The translations under genes were made by a program, and so were the position numbers. From Diphasiastrum complanatum (lineage: Eukaryota > Streptophyta > Lycopodiopsida > Lycopodiales > Lycopodiaceae), in the NCBI GenBank assembly GCA_029204225.1, contig CM055104.1:43367148-43431147 (forward strand): DNA of 64,000 nt, written 5' to 3'. Below, piece by piece: positions 4,250 to 59,856 of the stretch (within the stretch, counting starts at the first letter, position 1; each line of letters starts with the position of its first letter). Under the pieces are notes generated by a model. That model had not been told where the DNA came from. It did not search any database and saw nothing but the letters and a program-made list of their open reading frames with translations.

Positions 4250-4289
4250 CATTGCACAGATTCTCTTTCAAATTTAACTATCATCCTAT

Positions 4290-4341
<52 letters not shown>

Positions 4342-4359
4342 AAAATGTCCATTGGTAAT
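4250..4359. repeat. Left flanking repeat with internal (AT)n
   Basis: About 40 bp beginning CATTGCACAGATT and ending AACTATCATCC precedes an AT run (4291-4339), followed by AAAAATGTCCAT. The same two flanks, near-identical, occur at 11495-11630 around a GT run. The pair brackets the transposase-like and histone-Ulp1 genes in direct orientation. It could be two copies of one small repeat or the relic of a duplication. Confidence 0.8.
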
Positions 4360-4644
4360 CATTAGAGGAGTTACAAACATCAAAAGGGCCGTCTAAGAAA
4401 TGCCACGTCGGACAAAAAAAACGCCGGAGTTTAAAACTCCGACGGACTTTCAGGTCTAGTTTAGCTTAACCTTACTAGTAATGTGTAGTTAACATGACAC
4501 GATTATGACGTATGCAACTGCGACTTCAAGAACCTATGACTCTCATTAACTAACTTTTTCAAATTTGAAAATGAGATTGTGTCCCTCGTTTTAACTAGCG
4601 AGAGAATAAACATAGAATCTCAGGTACGTCATGGATGAATAATA

Positions 4645-7146
4645 ATGTCTACTTTCTTGTTGGTCTGTCAGCTGATGTTTGCGGAGATGTCTCAGTTTCA
4701 TCTACACATTGTTCTCCCTGCCGAGAATGCTCCTATAGCTAATAGAGGAGTAGTGAAAGAATCCACAGTTTCTCCACTTGATATGATCGCTCACAGAATC
4801 AACCAAAGAAAGAATTACGATTTGTGGATTGACGGAAGTTTGTATCCATTGGATCCGAGCTCCATGCAAGCTCCACAATTCCAATCCATCACACAATTAA
4901 TAAAGTTTTTGTGTGACGGAGAAAACGGTTTATTGGGTTATTGTGAAAGATTGACGACTTATGGTGTTGCAAACTCGGTTCAGAAAATATAGAGTTTAGA
5001 ATGTATGTTAAATGGTTTGCTTGCTGACTATAGAGACCGCATTATTACAAACAAAAGAAGATAATGCACGTTTACATAATATTATGTTAGATTTGAATGC
5101 AAGTAATAATCAATTCCAACAAGTTGTTCAGACATTACGTATATCAAATGACTAGTTAAAAGAAAAAACTCGTATACTAGATAAGAAATTAAAAAGAAAC
5201 AAGCGAAAAAGAATTCTGAAGGACATTGATGAGCTTTCGCTAAATGGAGGCCAACGGAGAAAAAGGATTCAAGCATTGTAAGGATTTGATTTCAATCAGT
5301 TTTATTTTAGTTTTGTGAAGTAGCATGAAATTTATTATGTGTCCTATTTGGGTTTCTTGATTTTCATAATCATTTGCAGATCAGCATTGGTTGCAAATGA
5401 GCATCTGAAGGACAATGACCTGATCGGAAAATCATTGAGTTCGGTATTGACAACCAAGTCCACAAAGTTTTTATTGGACAATAATCATTATTCTCGAATC
5501 AAGTCCAAGGTCACTGAGGATTTGATGAACGAGGTCGGTAAGGTAATCGACCGAATGTTAATTCAGGGAGCATGTGATTTCTCGGTATTAGCAGGCAGGC
5601 ATATGCCAGTATATTTAAAATTATTAAAGAGGCTTTTGGACAATTGCATGTAAGAAATTCCCATTCCTTGCCCTTTTCAGATAAGATTGGAGAGAGATGT
5701 ATTGAATAAGGGTATGCAAAATGTCATTGGAATCCCTTTTCACATCAATGAGATTTACAATTCAAAGTCTGGCAATTTGTCATATAATTCTACCAACAAC
5801 TTATTTGTGGATTTGAATCATTTATTGAGATTTATAGTGAAATTTTATAATAATACAAGTGTTAGCATGAGCAAACTTATTCTGGTGGTCAAGCTAGATG
5901 AATCGGAAGTTATAAAAGGACAAAAGTTCGAAAGAGTAAGTATTACTCTCATGAATGGAGCATTGAGCAATGCAACAAACTCAAGGGATCTCAACTTCAT
6001 TGTGCAATTAGAAAACAACATATGGTGGCTAGCATGTTTTCAGGTAAAAAATGGTTGTTATTCATGTGCAATTTCTTTTGGTAATTGTTTTGAATACATA
6101 AAAACTTGTGATTCCATATGTTGAACAGGTTATCAAGGAGGATCACGATGTTCTTTCCTGGATTTTTAGCAGAACAAGTTATCTAGATATCATAAAGGAT
6201 CATATGAATGGCAAAGTACTTAGTGTTCCTGAAAGAGGTGAATTTTTGGTAGAATGGCATTTAGCTGGAGACTTGAAGTCATTGAAATGTATGTTCAATG
6301 TATCTCATGGAGCAAATTTGAAACATCCATGTCTATATTGTATGAAATCATCAAATGACATTTCAAGGAACACAAGAGTTTCAAGATATATTGAAGATCC
6401 CAACTGGAAACCAGTACTACCAATCCCTTTACAAAATGTGCATATTTGCACACTCCATGGAGAGGTGAGGATCATAGAGAAATTAATATATTTTCATATC
6501 TTGTTTGCATGGAATACTAAGCCAGAGTCAACATCAAAACAAGCAATCGCTTGTTTAGAAGAAGTGTTGTCAAAAGCAGGCCTTCATAAAGGCCATGTTA
6601 AAATACAAAAAGATGAAAAGCTTTAGGGAAAAATAGGAAACGTACCCAATAAACCTAGCATAGGAGGAGTCAAAGCTCGTCGTTCTTTATCAAATCATTC
6701 TAAAGAGTCGTCTAAGATCCAATACTCTGTTTGGAAAGATGTTATTTCTGCAACAGAAGACTTTGAAGATAAAGGAACAACAAGGCTAAAGAAGGTTGAA
6801 GTTTGGAAAAAGCTCGATAATATGATTGAAGTGCTTAGAAAAGACACAATTTCATATGCAGATGCACTCCTATTGGAGAAAACAACAATAGAGTTTGTAG
6901 ATGCAGTTCGGGTGGCTTGGGGCTCAGATCACATCACCCACTACATGGTAAGATACATTTGAACAGTGTCTTACAATTTTATAATTTTAGTATAACTTGC
7001 TTGATGGATTCTAACCAATGCATAAATCTTTGATATTGCAGCACATAGCGATAAAGTACGCACAGATTTGGAGGGGGTCAGTTTCCTGGACTCAATATGC
7101 AAAACTGAATTCCAGAAACGACATTCATATATATAGTCTAATATAG
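4645..7146 (+). pseudogene. Transposase-like gene, multi-exon, decayed
   Basis: Probable DNA-transposon transposase of a non-classical DDE-like family. Segments in one orientation: 4645-4992 (ATG start after an A/T-rich leader); about 5010-5277, a lysine-rich coiled-coil-like stretch with heptad leucines; 5380-5649; 5681-6043; 6129-6947; and 7042-7146. Good splice signals are GTAAGG at 5278, TTTGCAG before 5380, GTAAAA at 6044, AACAG before 6129, GTAAGA at 6948 and TTGCAG before 7042. The core motifs are VKLDESEV, then WHLAGDLKSLKCM followed by HPCLYCM, then HICTLHGEVRIIEKLI, then AWGSDHITHYMHI. As I remember them, these resemble an uncharacterised family with D, GD.K, C..C and LH..RI.E motifs in animals and fungi; that is memory, not a search. 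Damage: in-frame stops at 4990-4992, in the coiled coil and at 6624-6626, a frame change near 5030, and a 31-nt pseudo-intron at 5650-5680. A stop-free downstream frame continues past 6626, so decay is recent or partial. Confidence 0.6.
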
Positions 7147-7161
7147 AGCATCTGAACCGTA

Positions 7162-7463
7162 CACGTGTCTCAGTAACGTGCGGTCAAAATTTCCACACGT
7201 GTGGAAACGACGGCGAAATCATTTTGAATGACACGTGTACACTTCGGATCCTAACACGTGTCCTTGCACATGCATGCCAACTATACGATCGTACAACCCA
7301 GTCATCTTGTGACGCGTGTGGGGTCCAGATGTCGCCATGTGTCCTCGCACGTGCATGTCAGCCATATGATCATACGAACCGCTGATGTCCTGACATGTGA
7401 CAGCTCCGTGTGATGACACGTGTGACCACACGTGTGGGGAGCGGAGATATCACATCACACGTG
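7162..7463. promoter_or_regulatory. Array of eight CACGTG (G-box) motifs
   Basis: CACGTG occurs at 7162, 7196, 7232, 7255, 7348, 7417, 7429 and 7458, mostly as ACACGTGT or CACACGTGTG. The copy at 7196 is the centre of a perfect 16-bp palindrome (TTCCACACGTGTGGAA, 7191-7206). Part of the array is an imperfect duplication (about 7254-7316 and 7336-7401). G-boxes bind plant bZIP and bHLH factors. The array lies 300-600 bp before the histone-Ulp1 start codon and directly upstream of a TATA box, so it is most simply that gene's promoter. Confidence 0.8.
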
Positions 7464-7489
7464 TGAATATGATGGGACGTTCCACAGGT

Positions 7490-7498
7490 ATAAAAGGA
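7490..7498 (+). promoter_or_regulatory. TATA box of the histone-Ulp1 gene
   Basis: TATAAAAGG lies 271 bp before the ATG at 7769 and directly after the G-box array. The predicted transcript start is near 7520-7530. The leader includes a run of about 18 C at 7644-7661. Confidence 0.65.
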
Positions 7499-7768
7499 CG
7501 TTTTCGGCTCATATTTCAGTTTCAGATTTATTCGTTCTCTGGCTCTCCTTAGCTTTCTTCGTTCACTTCCGCTCCTCGTTAGACGCATATCGCTACCACG
7601 TGCCCGAGGACCCACATACCAGTATAGCTGCCCGCACCACACACCCCCCCCCCCCCCCCCCTCCCGTCGTGGCGATATGCCATCTCTCATATCGCCATCA
7701 CGCACCTCCCATGTCGGATATCTGCTTTTCCTTCTCATTGGCGCATCATATTGATACCCTAGCTTGAA

Positions 7769-9594
7769 ATGGCCCGTACCAAGCAGACAGCACGCCTTAC
7801 CACATTTGCCCCGCCTCCTCGCCCTCTTCTACAAAGGGTAGTGGGCACCGGTAGGAGAGTAGGTCGGCCCAGAAGACCATGGTTAAGGGATATCAGGAGA
7901 CTTCAGAGGACAAAGAATCTTCTGATTCCCCATGCTCCTTTCTACAGGTCTGTGAGATAGTAACAAGGTCACTCTCACATGATGTTCGTTGGAACATAAC
8001 AGCCTTGGAAGCCCTCCATACTGCCTATGAGGACTTTCAAGTCAAATTCTTTGAGGACTCCACGCTTTGCACAGTGCACGCTAAGAGAGTTACCCTCATG
8101 TCTCAGGACATGCATCTTGTTATGAGACTGAGGAGTACATACGATCAGGTCTTTAAGAGTGGCTTCACCTCTAGGCCACCACCTACAGAGAGAGGTCTTG
8201 TTCCTCAACAAAGAACAAGGAAGCAGACCAAGCCCACCAGGCCTGCCAAGCAAAGGGTGGTACTCAGTGAATCACCATCCCCCCCTCACATCTCTCATCC
8301 TTTGGTTGGACCATCACACCAGTCTGCAGTGCCTTCTTCTCCTCCCACCACCCCTAACTATTCAAGTAGTTCCTCTTCCATTCTCTCCATTCCATCCCAC
8401 AATAACGAGGATATGAACTCGAATGTAGATAAAATAATATCGGATCTAGATTTAAGTTTAATAGGTGATTTTTATAAGGATCTTTTTGTAAGATTTCATG
8501 TTGATCCCAAAGATTCATTTTTGGATTCTGAGAGGTATATAATTTTTGATGAGTATGTTGCCAAAGAAATTGATAAGCTAGGAGGTCAATTTTCTTTTTG
8601 TCTAAGTTCAATTAATTATGTAAATCACATAAATAAAGACTTTTGTAATGCCTTGAAGGAGAAGACCTCAGATATATCAGATACAGTTGTGGAGGCTGGT
8701 TTGATGTATTTTGTAAATAGATGTAAATCCGATGATAGTAAGGACATTGGAGTTGTGTTGTCCTTTTTTGCACACAACCTTCATAGTCCAACTAAGGACG
8801 AAGTATCTTCTCCATACAACCTCGGAGACCAAAGTCTTTATTATTCCATACTGCCAAAAGTAAGTGTTTACATAGAATATATTCTAGTAATATTTTTAAT
8901 AGGTATTGTAATTCCTTTAGTTTAACTAATTATCTCTTGTTTCCAGTAAGCATTGGAGTATGCATATAATCTCCCTTAGGGAAGATTCAGATGGGATCAT
9001 TAATCCCATTTGTTTAAAGATGAACTCCTTAAAGTCTACCCATGTCGAAATGGACGTGATGTACAGCAAAATGTTGCCATTTTTGCCAAGGCCGGATGGG
9101 GCCACTCTAAATAGCCACCTGGAGATTGTTGATGCAAAAGTAAGTATCTCTCATCAAGTATCTGATAGGTAATATGATATATATTTTTTAGAGTGCACAA
9201 CTAACCTATTATACGTTTTGTGATTGAAGCCAGCTCAGCAAGATGATGGACATAGTTGTGGATGGTTCTCCATCCGCAATGTACAGGACTTCTTAGAGTG
9301 GTACATCATGCAATCCGGGGCTTCAGATATACGAAAGGTAAATAGACTAGTGAATGGCCTAACTAAGTTATTTTCGATTTGGTTTTTGATAAGTCAATTG
9401 ACTCAGTTCTTTTGGATTTGCAGTATAAATGTCGAGCATTTTCAATGAATGAGATATATGAGTTTCGTCAACAGATGTTGGTGAACTTATTACCTCATGC
9501 AACACCCAGTCCAGCTACGAAAACGGCAGGCCAATCAAGTCCACAACTGACACTAGTGCAGGGTGGAGATAATCCATATCACTTTGAGCTATAA
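7769..9594 (+). CDS. Histone H3/CENH3-like domain fused to Ulp1-type cysteine protease (one frameshift)
   Basis: The product starts MARTKQTAR, the exact H3 tail through K4, then a short divergent tail and an H3 fold: WLRDIRRLQRTKNLLIPHAPF, RWNITALEALHTAYEDF, FFEDSTLC, HAKRVTLMSQDM. LLIP.APF and loop 1, one residue longer than in H3 and ending in RW, are CENH3-like. A Pro/Ser linker (about 8137-8440) leads to a Ulp1 C48 peptidase: SDTVVEAGLMYF, HW (8951-8956), LKMNSLK where Asp is expected, and QDDGHSCGWF with oxyanion Gln and catalytic Cys. Exons: 7769-8859, 8951-9139, 9230-9337, 9424-9594, all phase 0 with GT..AG introns (the second exon uses TAAG|CATTGG as acceptor). The reading frame shifts at 7954-7960, where the first frame ends SVR-stop and the -1 frame goes on EIVTRS. 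Aligned to H3, about 4 nt are missing. Ulp1 enzymes cleave SUMO-type conjugates and are often carried by plant transposons. Domain calls are firm; function and intactness are not. Confidence 0.8.
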
Positions 9595-9945
9595 ATAATA
9601 GATTAAATAGAGATATACATTTTTTATGTAATGCCCTGTGAATGATTATGGGCATATAGAAAGATAGAGACAATGAGAAAAAACATCCATTGTTAAATAC
9701 AGGACACACATGTACATTCTCAGAAAATGAAAAATATATTGATATTTATGAGAGCTTTTACAAATCTTGTATCTATTATCTGAACAATTCCGTCCAAATC
9801 TTTGCATTTGATTTTCTCTTCATGTCTTTTATGTATCTGCACAAACCTCCGTATCGGGTCAGCCGAACAGAGGATGAAGAAATAACTAGGCAGTTAACAA
9901 ACTATCTTGGGAAAGGCCAAATTCAGACCAGTAGATTACAATTAG
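9595..9945. other. Spacer between convergent genes
   Basis: A/T-rich sequence follows the histone-Ulp1 stop. A plus-strand frame at 9690-9986 has no recognisable motif and overlaps the tail of the minus-strand gene. No convincing gene. Confidence 0.4.
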
Positions 9946-9949
9946 TCAT

Positions 9950-11200
9950 CCGAATATTGACAAAAAGGATAATGAATACAAATTAATATACAAATTCATG
10001 GATTTCACCAATTTTCCATCCAATATAAAGCTGAAATATTCGGGGATATCTTGCTGTAAAAGTGTCAGTTCCGTTCTAATGTAGAATAAGGTCCAGTCTT
10101 GCTCAACCTCAATAGTTATAAGTAAATCCCCATTTGCCATGATATCAATGCATATATGATCAGTGTGTCCAATGTTGTCTAGATCTTGATCTAATGGGGC
10201 CCAAGTACCATTGTGTTCTTTCCATCTCTAATAATGAAACACCATACTAAGCATTTGCTTTTCTATACTATATCTAAATGATATGGATGAATGTTTGATT
10301 CTATAAGAAATATCTGCAATGGATCTTATATCCCAACCTTTGCCCATGAATTTGAATAAAAAATCATCTGATAGATTTTTGCAAACAAACAATGTGGGAG
10401 TTCGATGCACTTTCGTGTTTGAAAAAGAGCTGACAAACAATGACATTGGAACAAACCAGCTTAAGTGCACATTTCTTGATCCAGTACTAGTTTTGAGTGA
10501 CTTTTGTACATCATTATATAGCTTGGAACGAAAGCATTTTATTATATTGTCGTTGACTGCAATCCACCACACGTTATCTTGAAAATTAGGTAGAGGTATA
10601 TACTCTAGTTTTCCATTCCTCCACTTGTGTCTGGAATATACATAGCATCATAAAAAAAAAATTCCAGAATCTGCAAGTTCTTTGGCCGTTCGTCCTCTGT
10701 ATTGCAATTTGCCAATTTTTGAATGGATGACATCTATAATACTTGAACGAGACACCACAGGTTCCCATTCATGTATATTTGAAGGATATAGATCTGCAAT
10801 ACAAAATCATAATAAGCTCCAATTTATAAATACGATTACGTTTTAAAAATGACAAGCAATCCAAAAAACTAAGATACTTACAATTACACTTTCAAAAATC
10901 ATGTGGATTTACAGCCTCCACATTAAGTTCTGAATGCATATAAACATGTTGAATAAGCACCTCTGAAATGGTTTGTCCTCCTGGAGAAACTTTGAAATCA
11001 ATAATCCGCCCTTTCCAATAAGATCCATATGTATACTTGGCCTTTTTCTTTTGGCGAAAAGCCCCTCTCGCCAATGGATGCATCAGTACCCAAGAAGCCT
11101 TATGATATTCACGAGCAATCCATGTACCATCGTCTTCTCTCTCATTATAAAAAATTGCAGAGCATATCAAGGATCTCGGTCTCCTTCTCATCGCCATAGC
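9950..11200 (-). pseudogene. Decayed multi-exon gene of unknown function, possibly third gene of the transposon
   Basis: The first exon starts at about 11197 (MAMRRRPRSL) and contains GTWIAREYHKASWVLMHPLA and YGSYWKGRIIDFKVSPGG, ending at a GTAAGT donor near 10885 with an in-frame TGA just before it. The next segment begins after TTGCAG at about 10797 and runs through WEPVVSRSSIIDVIHSKIGK to a run of about 10 T, where the frame breaks. It resumes as RHKWRNGKLEYIPLPNFQDN VWWIAVN and SWFVPMSLFVSSFS to about 10228, and then in another frame GTWAPLDQDLDNIGHTDHIC with a C-terminal stretch TIEVEQDWTLFYIRTEL..FSFILDGKLV. That last part looks like a small ubiquitin-like or similar beta-grasp tail; this is a weak inference. 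It converges on the histone-Ulp1 gene. I cannot name the family. Several frame breaks make it a likely pseudogene. Confidence 0.45.
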
Positions 11201-11494
11201 TTGAAGAGTTCACATTTGAACTCGTCAATATGAGAGTCCAGAGTATAATAGGCGCCAAATCTATTTGTGAGTCCCAAGATAATTTTAACTTGAGGTTAAT
11301 CCAAGCAGTTTAGTCAACCAGTCGTCGCGCACGCCAGCCAATAGTATGCTTCTAATCTACTGGACCGGAAATTCAAATTTTCCCAAATATGAATTGTGTT
11401 TTCCGGGTCAGGCGAGTTATGTTACATAGAAGCCACTATGTCAAGAACCGATCGGCCCTTCTAAGTTTGAGAACTCCTGTAATTGATGTCGCTT

Positions 11495-11529
11495 CATTGC
11501 ACAGATTTTCTTTCAAATTTAACTATCAT

Positions 11530-11602
<73 letters not shown>

Positions 11603-11630
11603 ACACACACAAAAATGTCCATCAGTGATC
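11495..11630. repeat. Right flanking repeat with internal (GT)n
   Basis: CATTGCACAGATT..AACTATCATCC, then (GT)n at 11532-11598, a short ACACAC stretch, then AAAAATGTCCAT. It is the second copy of the repeat at 4250-4359, in the same orientation, with a different microsatellite motif in the same place. Confidence 0.8.
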
Positions 11631-11740: not shown

Positions 11741-12160
11741 CTATTGGTTCAGATGCCACTGATAATGCTGATGCACCTGATGTTGTTGATGTCCAAGCTC
11801 CTCGTGCTCCTGCTGGTGAGGGTTCCTAGCCACCTTGGGCAAGAAAATAAATACATAGCATGTAGCCTCCACCAAGGCAACGCGTCAAGGTGTCAAAGCT
11901 CATGGATAAAATTGCCAAGTACCATAACATTACCAAGCTATTGCTGCCTCGGGCCCCATTTCTTAGAGTGATCAAAGATATCATTGATAATTTAGTACTC
12001 GACTACAAAATCACAAGTGAGGTAGTGATTGCATTTCAAGAGGCTAGTGAATGACATTTAACTACACTATATGTAGATGCCTATTTGTGTGCCCAACATG
12101 CCAAAAGAGTGACTCTCATGCCATGAGATTTAATGTTGGCGATGAGAATTAGAAAACTTT
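11741..12160 (+). pseudogene. Second histone H3-like fold, degenerate
   Basis: In one plus-strand frame, an acidic/Pro-Ala N-terminal part (DATDNADAPDVVDVQAPRAP) is followed after two or three stops by an H3 fold: MDKIAKYHNITKLLLPRAPF, then VIKDIIDN, VVIAFQEAS, and LYVDAYLCAQHAKRVTLMP. These align with the H3 alphaN, alpha1, alpha2 and alpha3 landmarks (KYQ..TELLI, PFQRLVREI, AALQEA, LCAIHAKRVTIMPKD). In-frame stops at 11827, 12052 and 12125 and no following Ulp1 region show it is a relic. It is divergent from the copy at 7769 (different tail, no extended loop 1), so it is not a simple recent duplicate. It lies just outside the right flanking repeat. Confidence 0.72.
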
Positions 12161-55445: not shown

Positions 55446-57873
55446 AGAGTGGCCTCCCTGAGTGGTGTGCAATCAAGAAAACTTGAACTCAATATATAAA
55501 ATAATCAAAAAATAATAAGTACAAATATGTACAATAAAAACTAGAGATTCGAAATAAATTACACGCATAACACACAAAGGGGCCCAACAATCATGTTAGA
55601 AAATTTTCCAATAAGTTTATATTAAATATAGTAGTTATTTAGATCATAATTAATGTCCTCCATGGTAGTCTAGTTGAATAAGATTGTTGGTGTTGATTAT
55701 AATGAGTGATATTCCTCAATCTAGCAAGTTGGAAGTTGAATATTGCAATGGAGACCCATGGATAAAAATGTGAAGATATTTTAATGTGTGATGTTGCCCC
55801 ACCCCAAATAAGTTGGATAAGAGTGTTACATGTGGCAAATGGATACCCTAGGCTCTTATCCCTCCACCCCTCCACGTGGAATGTGGACATTTTCAAACCC
55901 AAAATTGGCTTGGCCTAGGATGTTGATGTTTAATATAGATATTGGAATTATCATATTTCCACCATCATTCGAGGGCATGAGAGCTCTAGCCTCCACTATC
56001 ATCTTTTCATAGTTAGTAGCTCTCCATCACTTTGCAATAAGGGAGACCCAACGCCATCCAAGGGTGTGCAAAGCTTGTGCTTTCAATGTCATATTCTGAG
56101 CTCTCGCCATCACTTTCCAATAAGGGTGAGACCCAACATCGTCCAAGGTTGTGCAAAGCTTGTGTACCTTCATTGTCATATTGTGAATGAGAGCTCTTGC
56201 TTCCACTATCATTTTTTTGTAGTTAAGAGAGCTCTCCATCTATCTTTCTATAAGGGTGGGACCAAAGGTGCAAGAGTTGGAATTAAGCTTCTCCTTAGAT
56301 ATTGTAAATAATCATGCCACATTACTAGTAGGAACAAAGCTAACAAAGTATAGAAATGATGGGAAAACCCATGATCAAACAAGTGGAATCTAGATTATTT
56401 CTTAAAGATAAGTATTACAAAAATATTTAGGATTTCTTTTATATAAGCATGTACCTTTTGAGTATGAGTATTAGTCCATAGAAAACCAAGAATCTTACAA
56501 AATGAATGTTTATTTTGAAAATAACTCAAAAAGCATTGCTCAAGAAAATCGGCAAAGTATAGGAATATAACTTGCATTGTTCTCAAAATTTGGCATCATG
56601 AAGATTTCAACGATTTTTTTATATATGTACAAACCCTTTTTTGAGTAATAGTCCTCAAAATTTCGAGAAACTTTAAAAAGTTCAGGTTATTTGAGGATCA
56701 CCCAAAAAAATGTTTTGTCGAGAGAAGAAAAGAAAAAAACGTTTTGTGCGCATGGGTCAAAAAGGATTTCCGAACTCTTGATGCCCAATTAACAATATTG
56801 CAACTGAAGTGAGAGGCTGATTTTTTTGTGAGCAAGTATTTGTTGGTTCCATGGATACTTAGAGATTAGGTGCACTCACATCCATGGAAGAACGAGGTAA
56901 ACCCACAATAAAATTATGGGACAAATAGTTAGTGCTTGGTTTAGTCATTTCTTAGCATGCTGGAGCTCCCTTCACAATCCATCATGCAACCACCACCACC
57001 CACCTGATGCATGCCTACCACTCCCTTCTCTTTCCATGCATTATCGGTAGCTACTGATGGTTGTTGCATATTCTTTCTCGATTTTTGTTATGCCATGCCC
57101 TCTACTGTAGCATGAAGCTGCATCAAGATAGTTATTGTTGGATTCTGAAACCCTACTGCAGTTTGCCGTGTTTGAGATTGCTTTGTTACATATTCTGCCT
57201 GCTTTGCTTTCATTTCATCAGAGATTGGAAGTTTCATGGCTTAATTGTCTGTTGGTAGCTGCTTGATTTCACGCACACTTATGTGGGTCTCCTTAAACAG
57301 GTATTGGTGCCATCATTCTGCTGCTTTCTCTGAATTTTATTGTGAAATCTGATCTGGGCACTTGCCTGATATCTTTTGTCTGTATCTTATCAATTCGAAA
57401 GTTTATGAGTTGATTGTATCTGTTTAATTTCAAAGACATTTGGGTCTATTTCAACATGTGCTGGTGCCTTAATTCTGCTGCTGTCCCTGAATACTACTTT
57501 AAAATCTGATCTGAGGTTTTGTGTGAAAGGTTTTCTCTAGTACACACTAATTCTCCTTAACTATGCTTCCAACTCTTTAATTGATCTGCTTTTCTACATT
57601 GTTCAATTTTCCTGCAACCTGAGATCGATCCATGGACTCTAACAGCAACCTGCTTAATTGATACTATTGCGATCTCCGCATGTCATGCACATCTTCCTTT
57701 CCATTTCACCTGTCAAATTGGTGCAACTTGAGCTCACCCTTGCTTGAATTGAGGCTGGAGCTGCTGTTGCCACCGGATTCGTACTACTGGGATTTCTGAT
57801 CAAGCTTCATCTTGATTGAACAGTTCAGTATGTTAAGCATCTGCTTCTGTATTTATTTTTGAAATTGATCTAT
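55446..57873. other. Upstream region of the GH5 gene
   Basis: No conserved frame. It contains the tandem repeats at 55979-56262 and, from about 57040, pyrimidine-rich sequence that probably includes the promoter and leader of the GH5 gene. An intron in the 5' leader is possible but cannot be shown. Confidence 0.4.
55979..56262. repeat. Imperfect tandem repeats of about 85 bp
   Basis: 56021-56101 and 56102-56190 share CCATCACTTT.CAATAAGGG, GACCCAAC..C.TCCAAGG and TGTGCAAAGCTTGTG. The flanking pieces 55979-56043 and 56192-56262 are partial further copies (GAGCTCT.GC.TCCACTATCAT). Confidence 0.8.
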
Positions 57874-59856
57874 ATGATGTCACTTCATTTCTCCTGGCCT
57901 GGGCAATTGTTCAATGGGAAAGGAAGCAGCACACACAGCTTCCTCAAATGCGCACTTGTATCCGTGTTTTCGCTCGCCTTCGCACAGATTCCTGTGGTGA
58001 GCGCAGAGTTTCATGTCAACACAGCCACTGGAAGAATTGTGGACAAATATGGCAGAGAGAGGCTGTTTCACGGCCTCAACGTGGTGATGAAAGGCCCTCC
58101 TTGGCATCCTCACACCGACGCTTTCGATCCTCGAAATTCATTCTGCGAGGGAGATATTAAGCTGATGAGGAAGTGGGGCATGAATGTGGTGAGGCTAGCG
58201 GTGATGTGGCCTGGCGTGGAGCCTACGCAGGGAAATATAAACGCTACATATCTCCAGATCATGCGTTCAATTGTTCGCAAACTACACTCAGCAGGTATAT
58301 ATACTTTAATTGAGTTCCATCAAGATTTGTTTACCTCTCAATTCTGCGGTGAGGGCGTACCAGGGTGGGTTTTGGGCGACACTGTTAGCGATCATCCTAA
58401 AAGCAAACTGTACAATTCCCAGCAGGCTTTTCATCCATCGCGGAGCTTACGAGGGTTAATAGGCCGGCGAAAGAAAGCTTGGGGAGACTCTACTTTCAAA
58501 TCGTATGAATCTGCTGCAACTGAAGCATTAAGTGCACTTGAAAGGGATCTAGATTGCCAGCAAATGTTGAGGAATCTTTCGCATTTCCCAGAGCCTTTAA
58601 GCAGAAGATGGGTTAGAGATTTTGATCAAGGAACAAGCCAGGAATTGCAGGAGAAGTGCGGCAGCCCTAATTGGTTCTGGTTCTACTTTTCATATTCTGT
58701 TTCCAAGGCATTCCAGGATTTGTACGAGAATCGATGGGGATGGGCAGATCTTCTCGCTGGATATTGGAAGGCTGTTGTAGAAACTTTCAAGAAGGAGAAG
58801 GGTGTGCTTGGATATGAGCTCATGAATGAGCCTTGGGCTGGAGATTTTTACACGGATCCCTTGCTACTACTTCCAGGAATTGCTGATAGGATTAACTTAG
58901 CACCATTCTATGAAAAGTTGCAGGCAGCTGTGAGGTCTGTTGACAGCGAAAGAATTATTTTCTTCGAATCTCTCACCTTTGATGATGTCTTGTGTGGATT
59001 CTCCAGTGTTCCTGGAGGAGAGGTATTTAAAAACAGGTCAGTTCTGAGTTATCATTACTACAGACCACCAAATCTGAGCCCCAGACAAGCTTTCAGAGAG
59101 AGATTGGGGGAAGGGAAAAGACTTGGATGTGGAACAATGCTGACCGAATTTTTTATCAATAGAGAAGGTAGCAGCAGCAGGTGGCTCTCCAAGAAACAAC
59201 ATGAATCTCTCTCTGCTTGGGATAGCCTTTGTGCAAAATGGAAGCTTTGTAGCTGTAGTAAGTCTGTGCCTTTCTGTGCCAACAAAATGAGCAACAACTT
59301 GGAACAAGTTTGCTTTCAATTGCAGTCTTCTGAACGCCAGAAATTGTCTGCAGAGATGGAAGCTGGAAAGGATTCAGTCGAAGAGGTTTTGGCTGAATCA
59401 GACAGCTATGTTCAGTCTTGGATAGGATGGGAGTACAAAGCATTTCTCAACAAGACAGGGTCAAACATAGACCAATCACTTTTTACTGATGATGGACAAG
59501 TAAACCTGAACCTGGCAAAGAAGCTTGCTAGGACTTACCCTCAAGCAGTTGCTGGGAAGATTATTTCATTTTCATTTGATCCAGTCTTTGCCAGGTTTTC
59601 TTTGGTCTATTTTGTTGAAAGATTGCTGCACAGCCAAGCTGAGGAAGAAAATTTAGTGTCTGTAGATGTTGATAACAGCAAGCACTGTACCCAGATTTTT
59701 GTGCATCGTCAGTTTCATTATCCCTTAGGTCTTGATGTGAAAGTGAGTGACAACTGCCTTGATGTAAAGGAGGAAGAGAGAATCATTACCATATGTCATA
59801 GCAACCATTGTCTTAGAAAAGTTGTGCAGGTTGAAATTAACAGAAGAAAGCCTTGA
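57874..59856 (+). CDS. Secreted endoglycoceramidase-like glycoside hydrolase, family GH5
   Basis: Predicted to hydrolyse the bond between oligosaccharide and ceramide in glycosphingolipids, or a related beta-glycoside. One uninterrupted exon, about 660 residues from the ATG pair at 57874/57877 (the open frame extends to a TTG at 57859). Residues about 23-44 form a signal peptide with cleavage near VVSA|EF. Family motifs: LFHGLNVVMKGPPWHP, GMNVVRLAVMWPGVEPTQG, IEFHQDLFTSQFCGEGVPGW, GYELMNEPWAGDFY with general acid/base Glu about 319, SVLSYHYYRPP, and GTMLTEFF with nucleophile Glu about 425, then SWIGWEYKAF. A C-terminal beta domain follows (KIISFSFDP..). Two stretches look longer than in the bacterial and animal enzymes I recall: about 166-265 and a Cys-rich insert at about 440-515. 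No stops or frameshifts. Plant members are little known; glucosylceramide is a plausible plant substrate, by inference. Confidence 0.93.
   Translation: MMSLHFSWPGQLFNGKGSSTHSFLKCALVSVFSLAFAQIPVVSAEFHVNTATGRIVDKYGRERLFHGLNVVMKGPPWHPHTDAFDPRNSFCEGDIKLMRKWGMNVVRLAVMWPGVEPTQGNINATYLQIMRSIVRKLHSAGIYTLIEFHQDLFTSQFCGEGVPGWVLGDTVSDHPKSKLYNSQQAFHPSRSLRGLIGRRKKAWGDSTFKSYESAATEALSALERDLDCQQMLRNLSHFPEPLSRRWVRDFDQGTSQELQEKCGSPNWFWFYFSYSVSKAFQDLYENRWGWADLLAGYWKAVVETFKKEKGVLGYELMNEPWAGDFYTDPLLLLPGIADRINLAPFYEKLQAAVRSVDSERIIFFESLTFDDVLCGFSSVPGGEVFKNRSVLSYHYYRPPNLSPRQAFRERLGEGKRLGCGTMLTEFFINREGSSSRWLSKKQHESLSAWDSLCAKWKLCSCSKSVPFCANKMSNNLEQVCFQLQSSERQKLSAEMEAGKDSVEEVLAESDSYVQSWIGWEYKAFLNKTGSNIDQSLFTDDGQVNLNLAKKLARTYPQAVAGKIISFSFDPVFARFSLVYFVERLLHSQAEEENLVSVDVDNSKHCTQIFVHRQFHYPLGLDVKVSDNCLDVKEEERIITICHSNHCLRKVVQVEINRRKP

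Follow-up and report, generated by a model that had tools for sequence, protein, structure and literature searches.

The question raised by this locus, in the clubmoss Diphasiastrum complanatum, is whether a histone H3 and a Ulp1-type SUMO protease are encoded there by one gene, and what the product of such a gene would do. The window, that is, the whole stretch of DNA analyzed, is 64 kb long and corresponds to C13:43367148–43431147 in an assembly of 1.745 Gb and 5176 contigs. At its position 7769 begins an exact H3 tail (MARTKQTAR), as the first-pass annotation had reported, and the other elements named there were also recovered: an H3 fold, a Pro/Ser linker and, beyond it, the Ulp1 motifs KHW and QDDGHSCGWF. 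In a check run against Pfam Histone (PF00125), the open reading frame at 7855–8922 scored 51.6 bits (1.4e-13) with a cut-off of 26.4, the first H3 piece taken alone (7769–7957) reached 17.6 bits, and 4/4 relatives tried passed the cut-off. The assignment of the C-terminal half to the Ulp1/C48 peptidases held for the family but fell just short in the window copy: 3/3 full-length relatives tried exceeded the PF02902 cut-off of 20.7 bits (30.2, 28.2, and 24.3), whereas the Ulp1 half of the window scored 19.7.

The fusion gene lies on the forward strand. Exon 1 (7769–8859) encodes the H3-like domain (7769–8133; tail MARTKQTARL, then alpha-N to alpha-C), a Pro/Ser/Arg-rich linker (8171–8403; dN/dS 0.84) and the N-terminal part of the Ulp1 domain. 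Exon 2 (8947–9139) holds the catalytic His-Trp and an Asn replacing the Asp, exon 3 (9230–9337) the catalytic Gln and Cys within QQDDGHSCGW, and exon 4 (9424–9594) the C-terminus and the stop codon, at 9594. Read in the family frame, the predicted protein has ∼520 residues, with an H3-like histone connected by a Pro/Ser linker to a cysteine-protease domain of the Ulp1/C48 type. A single window frame (7855–8922) leads from the H3 half across the linker and into Ulp1.

The window copy is a broken member of this family. Its H3 part is split between two frames by a shift near 7957, where the first frame ends at once, and a second small deletion near 8796 shifts the frame again; in the family frame, it has no stop codons and 2 frame-breaking codons in 521. 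Because of these two small frame-shifting deletions, two details of the first-pass annotation are partly artefacts. The gene had been described as four phase-0 exons, but the phase-0 reading where exon 1 meets exon 2 is a product of the shift near 8796; relatives have a phase-2 intron 1, and their exon 2 begins at the equivalent of window position 8947. Loop 1 of the histone had been described as one residue longer than in H3, which is a product of the shift near 7957, a break that the original exon plan crosses without remark.

The proposal that a mobile element encodes an H3–Ulp1 fusion is borne out by the way the two halves are paired across the genome. Searches with the H3 half gave at least 150 matches (150 scored of 6630 candidates) at 72–93% identity, mostly over the whole query, and those with the Ulp1 half at least 327 (129 scored of 8630 candidates); we refer to the family of the window as subfamily A. 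When the 150 H3 places were compared with 124 places matching the first part of Ulp1, among the matches listed, at least 72 of the 150 were followed, in the same orientation, by the start of a Ulp1 half, at a median gap of 635 nt, and no opposite-strand pair was found within 1.5 kb. At 24/30 H3 loci the Ulp1 half is present at least in part within the 1.5 kb examined; none was found in that interval at the other six (L011, L012, L013, L017, L021, and L023). Conversely, all eight loci picked by Ulp1 have H3 upstream, one of them being the window (L035), one the same copy as L005 (L038), and one carrying only part of H3 (L039). Four of the 30 H3 loci (L005, L010, L019, and L030) retain one open reading frame of 364–365 aa that begins at the H3 start with MARTKQTAR, or with a one-residue variant, and continues up to the first intron. 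The fusion is therefore real and present in more than one copy, and the first-pass annotation, which would have been given up had no homologue with both domains existed in other copies, stands on this point, since other copies carry both. All 23 chromosome-scale contigs bear H3 copies among the matches listed; some of the small-contig places may duplicate chromosome copies.

Several other origins were considered and rejected. A chance or misread open reading frame is ruled out by the other copies and by the selection described below, and a stand-alone host CENH3 adjoining a Ulp1 element by the frame of the relatives, which crosses both parts. A plasmid origin was discarded as there was no plasmid match, and a viral origin as no confirmed relative was found among viral contigs.

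The fusion extends to a second subfamily. The protein closest to the H3 half in a large protein database is P0031 (D. complanatum O6H91_14G014700, 137 aa, annotated as ‘hypothetical protein’), 61–62% identical to the window H3 half over the length of P0031, and protein searches returned no close relative outside D. complanatum. P0031 is encoded at 100% identity at C14:7056002 and C14:10130489, and a genome search with it gave at least 150 matches (150 scored of 6678 candidates) at 76–100% identity, with open frames of up to 389 aa; none of these places, which we call subfamily B, coincides with a subfamily A place among the matches listed. P0031 is thus a subfamily B H3 with an open frame of only 137 aa, which has a protein record of its own yet is one of at least 150 dispersed places. 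In the one B copy read (C9:29905250–29906760), H3, a Pro/Ser/Lys linker and a Ulp1 part 45% identical to that of the window lie in one frame and are followed by a KHW exon. This copy has lost four residues from its H3 part, its frame is broken in the second exon, and its loop 1 is 4 residues longer than in A. The partial B protein gave no PF02902 match; the catalytic exons are absent from it. The start MARTKQTARLT is common to A and B copies, and, as far as these sequences tell, the fusion seems older than the A/B split.

We quantified selection on the protein in 19 subfamily A copies (171 pairs), hand-chosen from 32 aligned copies by excluding 12 gap- or stop-rich copies and the near-duplicate L025, with the near-duplicates L009 and L010 retained. 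dN/dS was 0.169 in the H3 globular core (bootstrap 0.10–0.28), 0.513 in Ulp1 (0.38–0.70), 0.835 in the linker (0.46–1.63), and 0.92 in the H3 tail (0.48–2.11). The 19 copies are the best matches to an H3 query, a choice that biases the H3 value downward; in a control of seven copies picked by Ulp1 (one of eight was dropped for gaps, and one is the window), dN/dS came to 0.228 (H3), 0.365 (Ulp1), 0.609 (linker), and 0.927 (tail). The H3 ratio is also lowered by dS, which reaches 0.21 in the H3 core compared with 0.08–0.11 in the other three parts; dN in the core, at 0.035, is the lowest of all parts. Because broken copies drift neutrally, the true constraint is probably tighter than these averages suggest.

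Between the subfamilies (five A copies against one B), synonymous sites are saturated. The H3 core has pS 0.71–0.87 and pN 0.19–0.20, Ulp1 has pS 0.71–0.77 and pN 0.34–0.36, and the linker has pS 0.60–0.71 and pN 0.44–0.47. These sequence changes indicate that selection has maintained both folded domains in the two subfamilies, with the linker and most of the tail having drifted. A working fusion protein is likely because selection is seen on both domains.

Damage to the copies is general. All 32 aligned copies, the window included, are damaged by stop codons or by codons that are partial or missing, and even the least damaged, L019, which has no stops and no frame shifts, has suffered a 3-base loss that removes the Trp beside the catalytic His. 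For these reasons the family is only possibly active at present; an intact copy may exist among the remaining copies in the genome. Such lesions would also be expected if host H3 and Ulp1 pieces had been picked up by chance and copied as passengers, and captured gene pieces are described as mostly becoming pseudogenes (PMC13317346). We disfavor this explanation, and regard it as highly improbable, because dN/dS is well below 1 in both domains and the same fusion occurs in two subfamilies whose synonymous sites are saturated.

The fusion is carried as an accessory gene by a DNA transposon that has inverted ends and many copies, and we are nearly certain of the anatomy given here. The transposon copy of the window occupies 4360–11484 on the forward strand (∼7.1 kb) and contains the fusion gene and two others between imperfect inverted ends of ∼32 nt. 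The left terminal inverted repeat (4360–4391, forward) starts with CATTAGAGGAG and is ∼81% matched to the right one (11453–11484, reverse), which ends with CTCCTGTAAT. In 10-kb stretches aligned with the window, five other copies stop abruptly on the right, at ...CTCCTGTAATG or a slight variation of it. Used as a query, the left end gave at least 40 places over the whole length and one partial (40 scored of 778 candidates), and the 31 left ends read (L047–L077) have 27 different flanks. Inverted ends, unique flanks, and many copies identify the element as a DNA transposon. The left end lies 5.2–5.7 kb from H3 in seven copies (2.5–4.9 kb in four others) and H3 lies 3.4–3.7 kb from the right end in five, so a full copy should measure ∼9 kb.

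No target-site duplication was found in 6/6 copies with both ends read or in the window; seven further pairs yielded no right end. CACTA/EnSpm elements are marked by CACTA ends and a 3-bp target duplication; the clubmoss element has the ends CATTA...TAATG and lacked a 3-bp duplication in 6/6 copies. Separately, longer, diverged direct repeats of the flank border the element in two of seven copies checked, the window (4250–4360 and 11495–11630) and L043.

Gene 1 (4672–7140, forward) is a putative transposase, a role that we infer, since it has no Pfam match; neither gene 1 nor gene 3 matched Pfam at E up to 10, and divergence or decay could hide a match. The window copy of gene 1 has a frame shift and three in-frame stops, all of them TAG, as methylation-driven CAG decay would give. 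In the five copies compared, L042 and L043 have pieces of gene 1, L045 and L046 keep no more than its last exon, and L044 has none of it; in L042 its middle (∼2.9 kb) is inverted relative to the other copies. Gene 3 (9949–11197, reverse; exons 10895–11197 and 9949–10797) is convergent with the fusion gene, is present at least in part in 5/5 other copies read, and has a dN/dS of ∼0.5. The putative promoter region of the fusion gene (7137–7500, forward) concentrates 8 of the window's 21 CACGTG motifs, followed by TATAAAAG near 7490. Upstream of the fusion, ACGTG occurs 6–10 times in 4/5 other copies read and three times in L043, where the region is shortened. This CACGTG-rich region could be a binding site of the fusion protein or of the transposase, or simply a promoter.

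In some large elements, adenain-like proteases mature the element's proteins. The Ulp1 part could be a maturation protease of that kind, with the H3 part giving the transposition complex a handle that binds DNA or H4. Conservation of both domains and of the catalytic His, Gln, and Cys would suit such a function, but no polyprotein was seen, genes 1 and 3 being encoded in frames of their own, and we consider processing of element proteins quite improbable.

The catalytic residues of the Ulp1 part are mostly retained, with His, Gln, and Cys each kept in 17/19 copies. The catalytic Asp is replaced by Asn in 18/19 (KMNS in the window) and present in one, and the protease may for that reason be weak or inactive. 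Papain-type enzymes function with Asn, and from its residues the Ulp1 part is possibly active as an enzyme. It shares the PF02902 match and the HW and Q.....CGW motifs with host ULP/SENP proteases (peptidase family C48), but differs from them in the Asp-to-Asn exchange and in being joined to H3.

The Asn, together with the H3 core being the most constrained part, would also fit a protein that interferes dominantly, sequestering H4 or histone chaperones and so loosening host chromatin, with Ulp1 acting as a non-catalytic SUMO reader. Conservation of His, Gln, and Cys would be odd in a pure reader, however, and this alternative strikes us as improbable.

Protein databases hold little of this family. 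The Ulp1 part of the window had no PDB sequence match at E up to 10, and none of 947 candidates from the protein database matched the Ulp1 half at E up to 10, although its genome copies are many; the annotated proteome may omit these genes. Searches with the whole fusion gave 30 matches, none covering >30% of the query and none listing PF02902 (seven of the 30 sequences were read), and no protein with both domains was returned by the protein-database searches.

The H3 part departs from a canonical histone tail. K4 is kept in all 19 subfamily A copies, R2 in 13 and R8 in 16, while position 9 is Leu in 18 and Ile in one, with Lys in none. This is not the conserved, lysine-bearing tail of H3: K4 is matched, but position 9 and the remaining tail differ. 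Past residue 11 the tail shows little constraint, which speaks against a rich tail code. ‘RPGT’ before alpha-N, which canonical H3 and the CENH3s used for comparison have in common, is altered in the fusion. An AlphaFold model of a natural 364-aa open reading frame was too weak for use (mean pLDDT 36).

The first-pass annotation had ascribed CENH3-like traits to the histone, and part of this description holds. The fusion shares with plant CENH3 (Lycoris, Dioscorea, and Cephalotus; P0045, P0042, and P0036) the H3 fold, LLIP followed by A.F, RW in loop 1, and an IHAKRVTLM-like stretch. It differs from them in being multi-copy, transposon-borne, and fused to a protease, in its altered alpha-N start, in an extra C-terminal TYD..FK.GFT, and in the loop 1 of subfamily A. 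The longer loop 1 of CENH3 is not found in the other subfamily A copies, where the loop has the length of H3 (VRLVTRSLSHDVRW in A, VREIAQDFKTDLRF in H3).

Phylogenetic evidence was likewise divided. In a tree of the core, the transposon H3 domains form one clade (100/100) that joins three plant CENH3s at 93/84, and grouping with three plant or algal H3 sequences was rejected (p-AU 0.027). With two more long sequences, the transposon clade fell outside both CENH3 and H3. When a further H3-like family (type C, below) was added, A and B with CENH3 had a p-AU of 0.23, compatible with that kinship, and a tree joining A and B, type C, and CENH3 had a small advantage over the free tree. In simple similarity, canonical-type H3s are equal to or above CENH3, and canonical-type chains top the PDB list (best 80.3 bits, against 75.8 for Schizosaccharomyces pombe Cnp1). 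On balance, we regard derivation of the H3 part from CENH3 as probable but tentative.

Such kinship raises the possibility that a CENH3-like part directs insertion by guiding the machinery of the element to centromeres or to chromatin that is special in other ways, with Ulp1 clearing SUMO-marked proteins such as KNL2 or other CENH3 loaders. Plant CENH3s are among the close named relatives of the H3 part, the tree at 93/84 points the same way, and the CENH3 loader of plants is sensitive to its SUMO state, KNL2 of Arabidopsis being controlled by SUMO and ULP1d (PMC12903445). Also in its favor, 22 of the 150 subfamily B places listed fall within 3.2 Mb of C3. Against it, subfamily A copies, among the matches listed, lie on all chromosome-scale contigs, 17 of these 22 have open frames of a single length (171), which may reflect local amplification, canonical-type H3 chains lead the PDB comparison, and subfamily A has a loop 1 as long as that of H3. 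We judge such targeting to be unlikely. The cluster itself spans 18.5–21.7 Mb of C3, its 17 like-sized places having the same 171-aa open frame, and may be a local amplification, perhaps near the centromere.

The genome seems full of H3-like domains. A Lycoris CENH3 query gave at least 150 matches (150 scored of 5604 candidates) at 37–56% identity, many in open reading frames of 300–440 aa; the best 13 (54–56%) lie on C11 (nine), C5 (three), and C23 (one), and a host CENH3 was not distinguishable among them. In the window, a second, dead H3-like domain with two stops lies at 11866–12153 (forward), ∼380 nt outside the element, and matches Pfam Histone at 7.3e-23 with the stops read as X. It groups at 95/93, on a long branch, with L092 (102–398, C10), in which a 440-aa open frame has its H3-like domain toward the C-terminus. 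We refer to this further H3-like family as type C.

Elsewhere in the window, a 678-codon stop-to-stop frame (57820–59856) matches glycoside hydrolase family 5 and the GH5 C-terminal domain, and we take it to be perhaps an endoglycoceramidase-like host gene. The window also contains coding pieces of Copia and Gypsy type.

For the role of the fusion, the most economical reading, in our view, is that the protein enters chromatin in the manner of a histone and counters silencing there. The H3 part would pair with H4 and dock the enzyme on or in nucleosomes. Having no Lys at position 9, the fusion H3 would be unable to take the H3K9 silencing mark. The Ulp1 part would strip SUMO or a related modifier from nearby chromatin or silencing proteins, and the element would in this way make a locally acting anti-silencing factor, much as is proposed for the Ulp1-carrying VANC/Kaonashi genes of Vandal elements. 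We assign a probability of roughly 0.5 to this explanation as a whole, an accessory transposon gene for a chromatin-docked Ulp1-type enzyme that counters silencing; that chromatin anti-silencing is the main role has, in our estimate, a little less than an even chance.

Flowering plants offer the nearest precedent. Plant transposons with Ulp1 domains have been reported since 2006, and the precise function of the domain in them is described as unknown (PMC13317346). Ulp1-carrying Mutator-like elements (Kaonashi/KIU, and VANC of Vandal) likewise bear a Ulp1-domain gene on a DNA transposon, conserved as if useful; VANC genes with a Ulp1 domain bring about hypomethylation of the element family to which they belong, the part played by Ulp1 being described as unknown (PMC13317346). 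In those elements, however, Ulp1 is joined to VANC and the ends are non-TIR, whereas in the clubmoss element Ulp1 is joined to a histone and the ends are inverted. Neither gene 1 nor gene 3 of the clubmoss element matched a MULE transposase or VANC-like domain in Pfam. Our literature search, covering titles and abstract openings of mostly open-access papers, returned no report of a histone–Ulp1 fusion or of a transposon-encoded H3. To our knowledge, no transposon has been known to encode a core histone variant.

A broader picture, which we offer as tentative and rather unlikely as a whole, is that the transposon would bring its own centromere-type histone with a SUMO-type protease, that this histone would enter nucleosomes at the element or at centromeres and make chromatin that could not be marked at H3K9, and that the protease would erase silencing signals around it. 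Type C appears to add transposon-like histone families to this genome, and histone capture would then be a strategy used repeatedly by selfish DNA in clubmosses. The joining of Ulp1 to a histone points to where the enzyme should act, and makes chromatin deSUMOylation as a means of avoiding silencing a testable idea. For clubmoss genomes, it also means that H3- or CENH3-like genes in current annotations may be transposon genes, of which P0031 is one.
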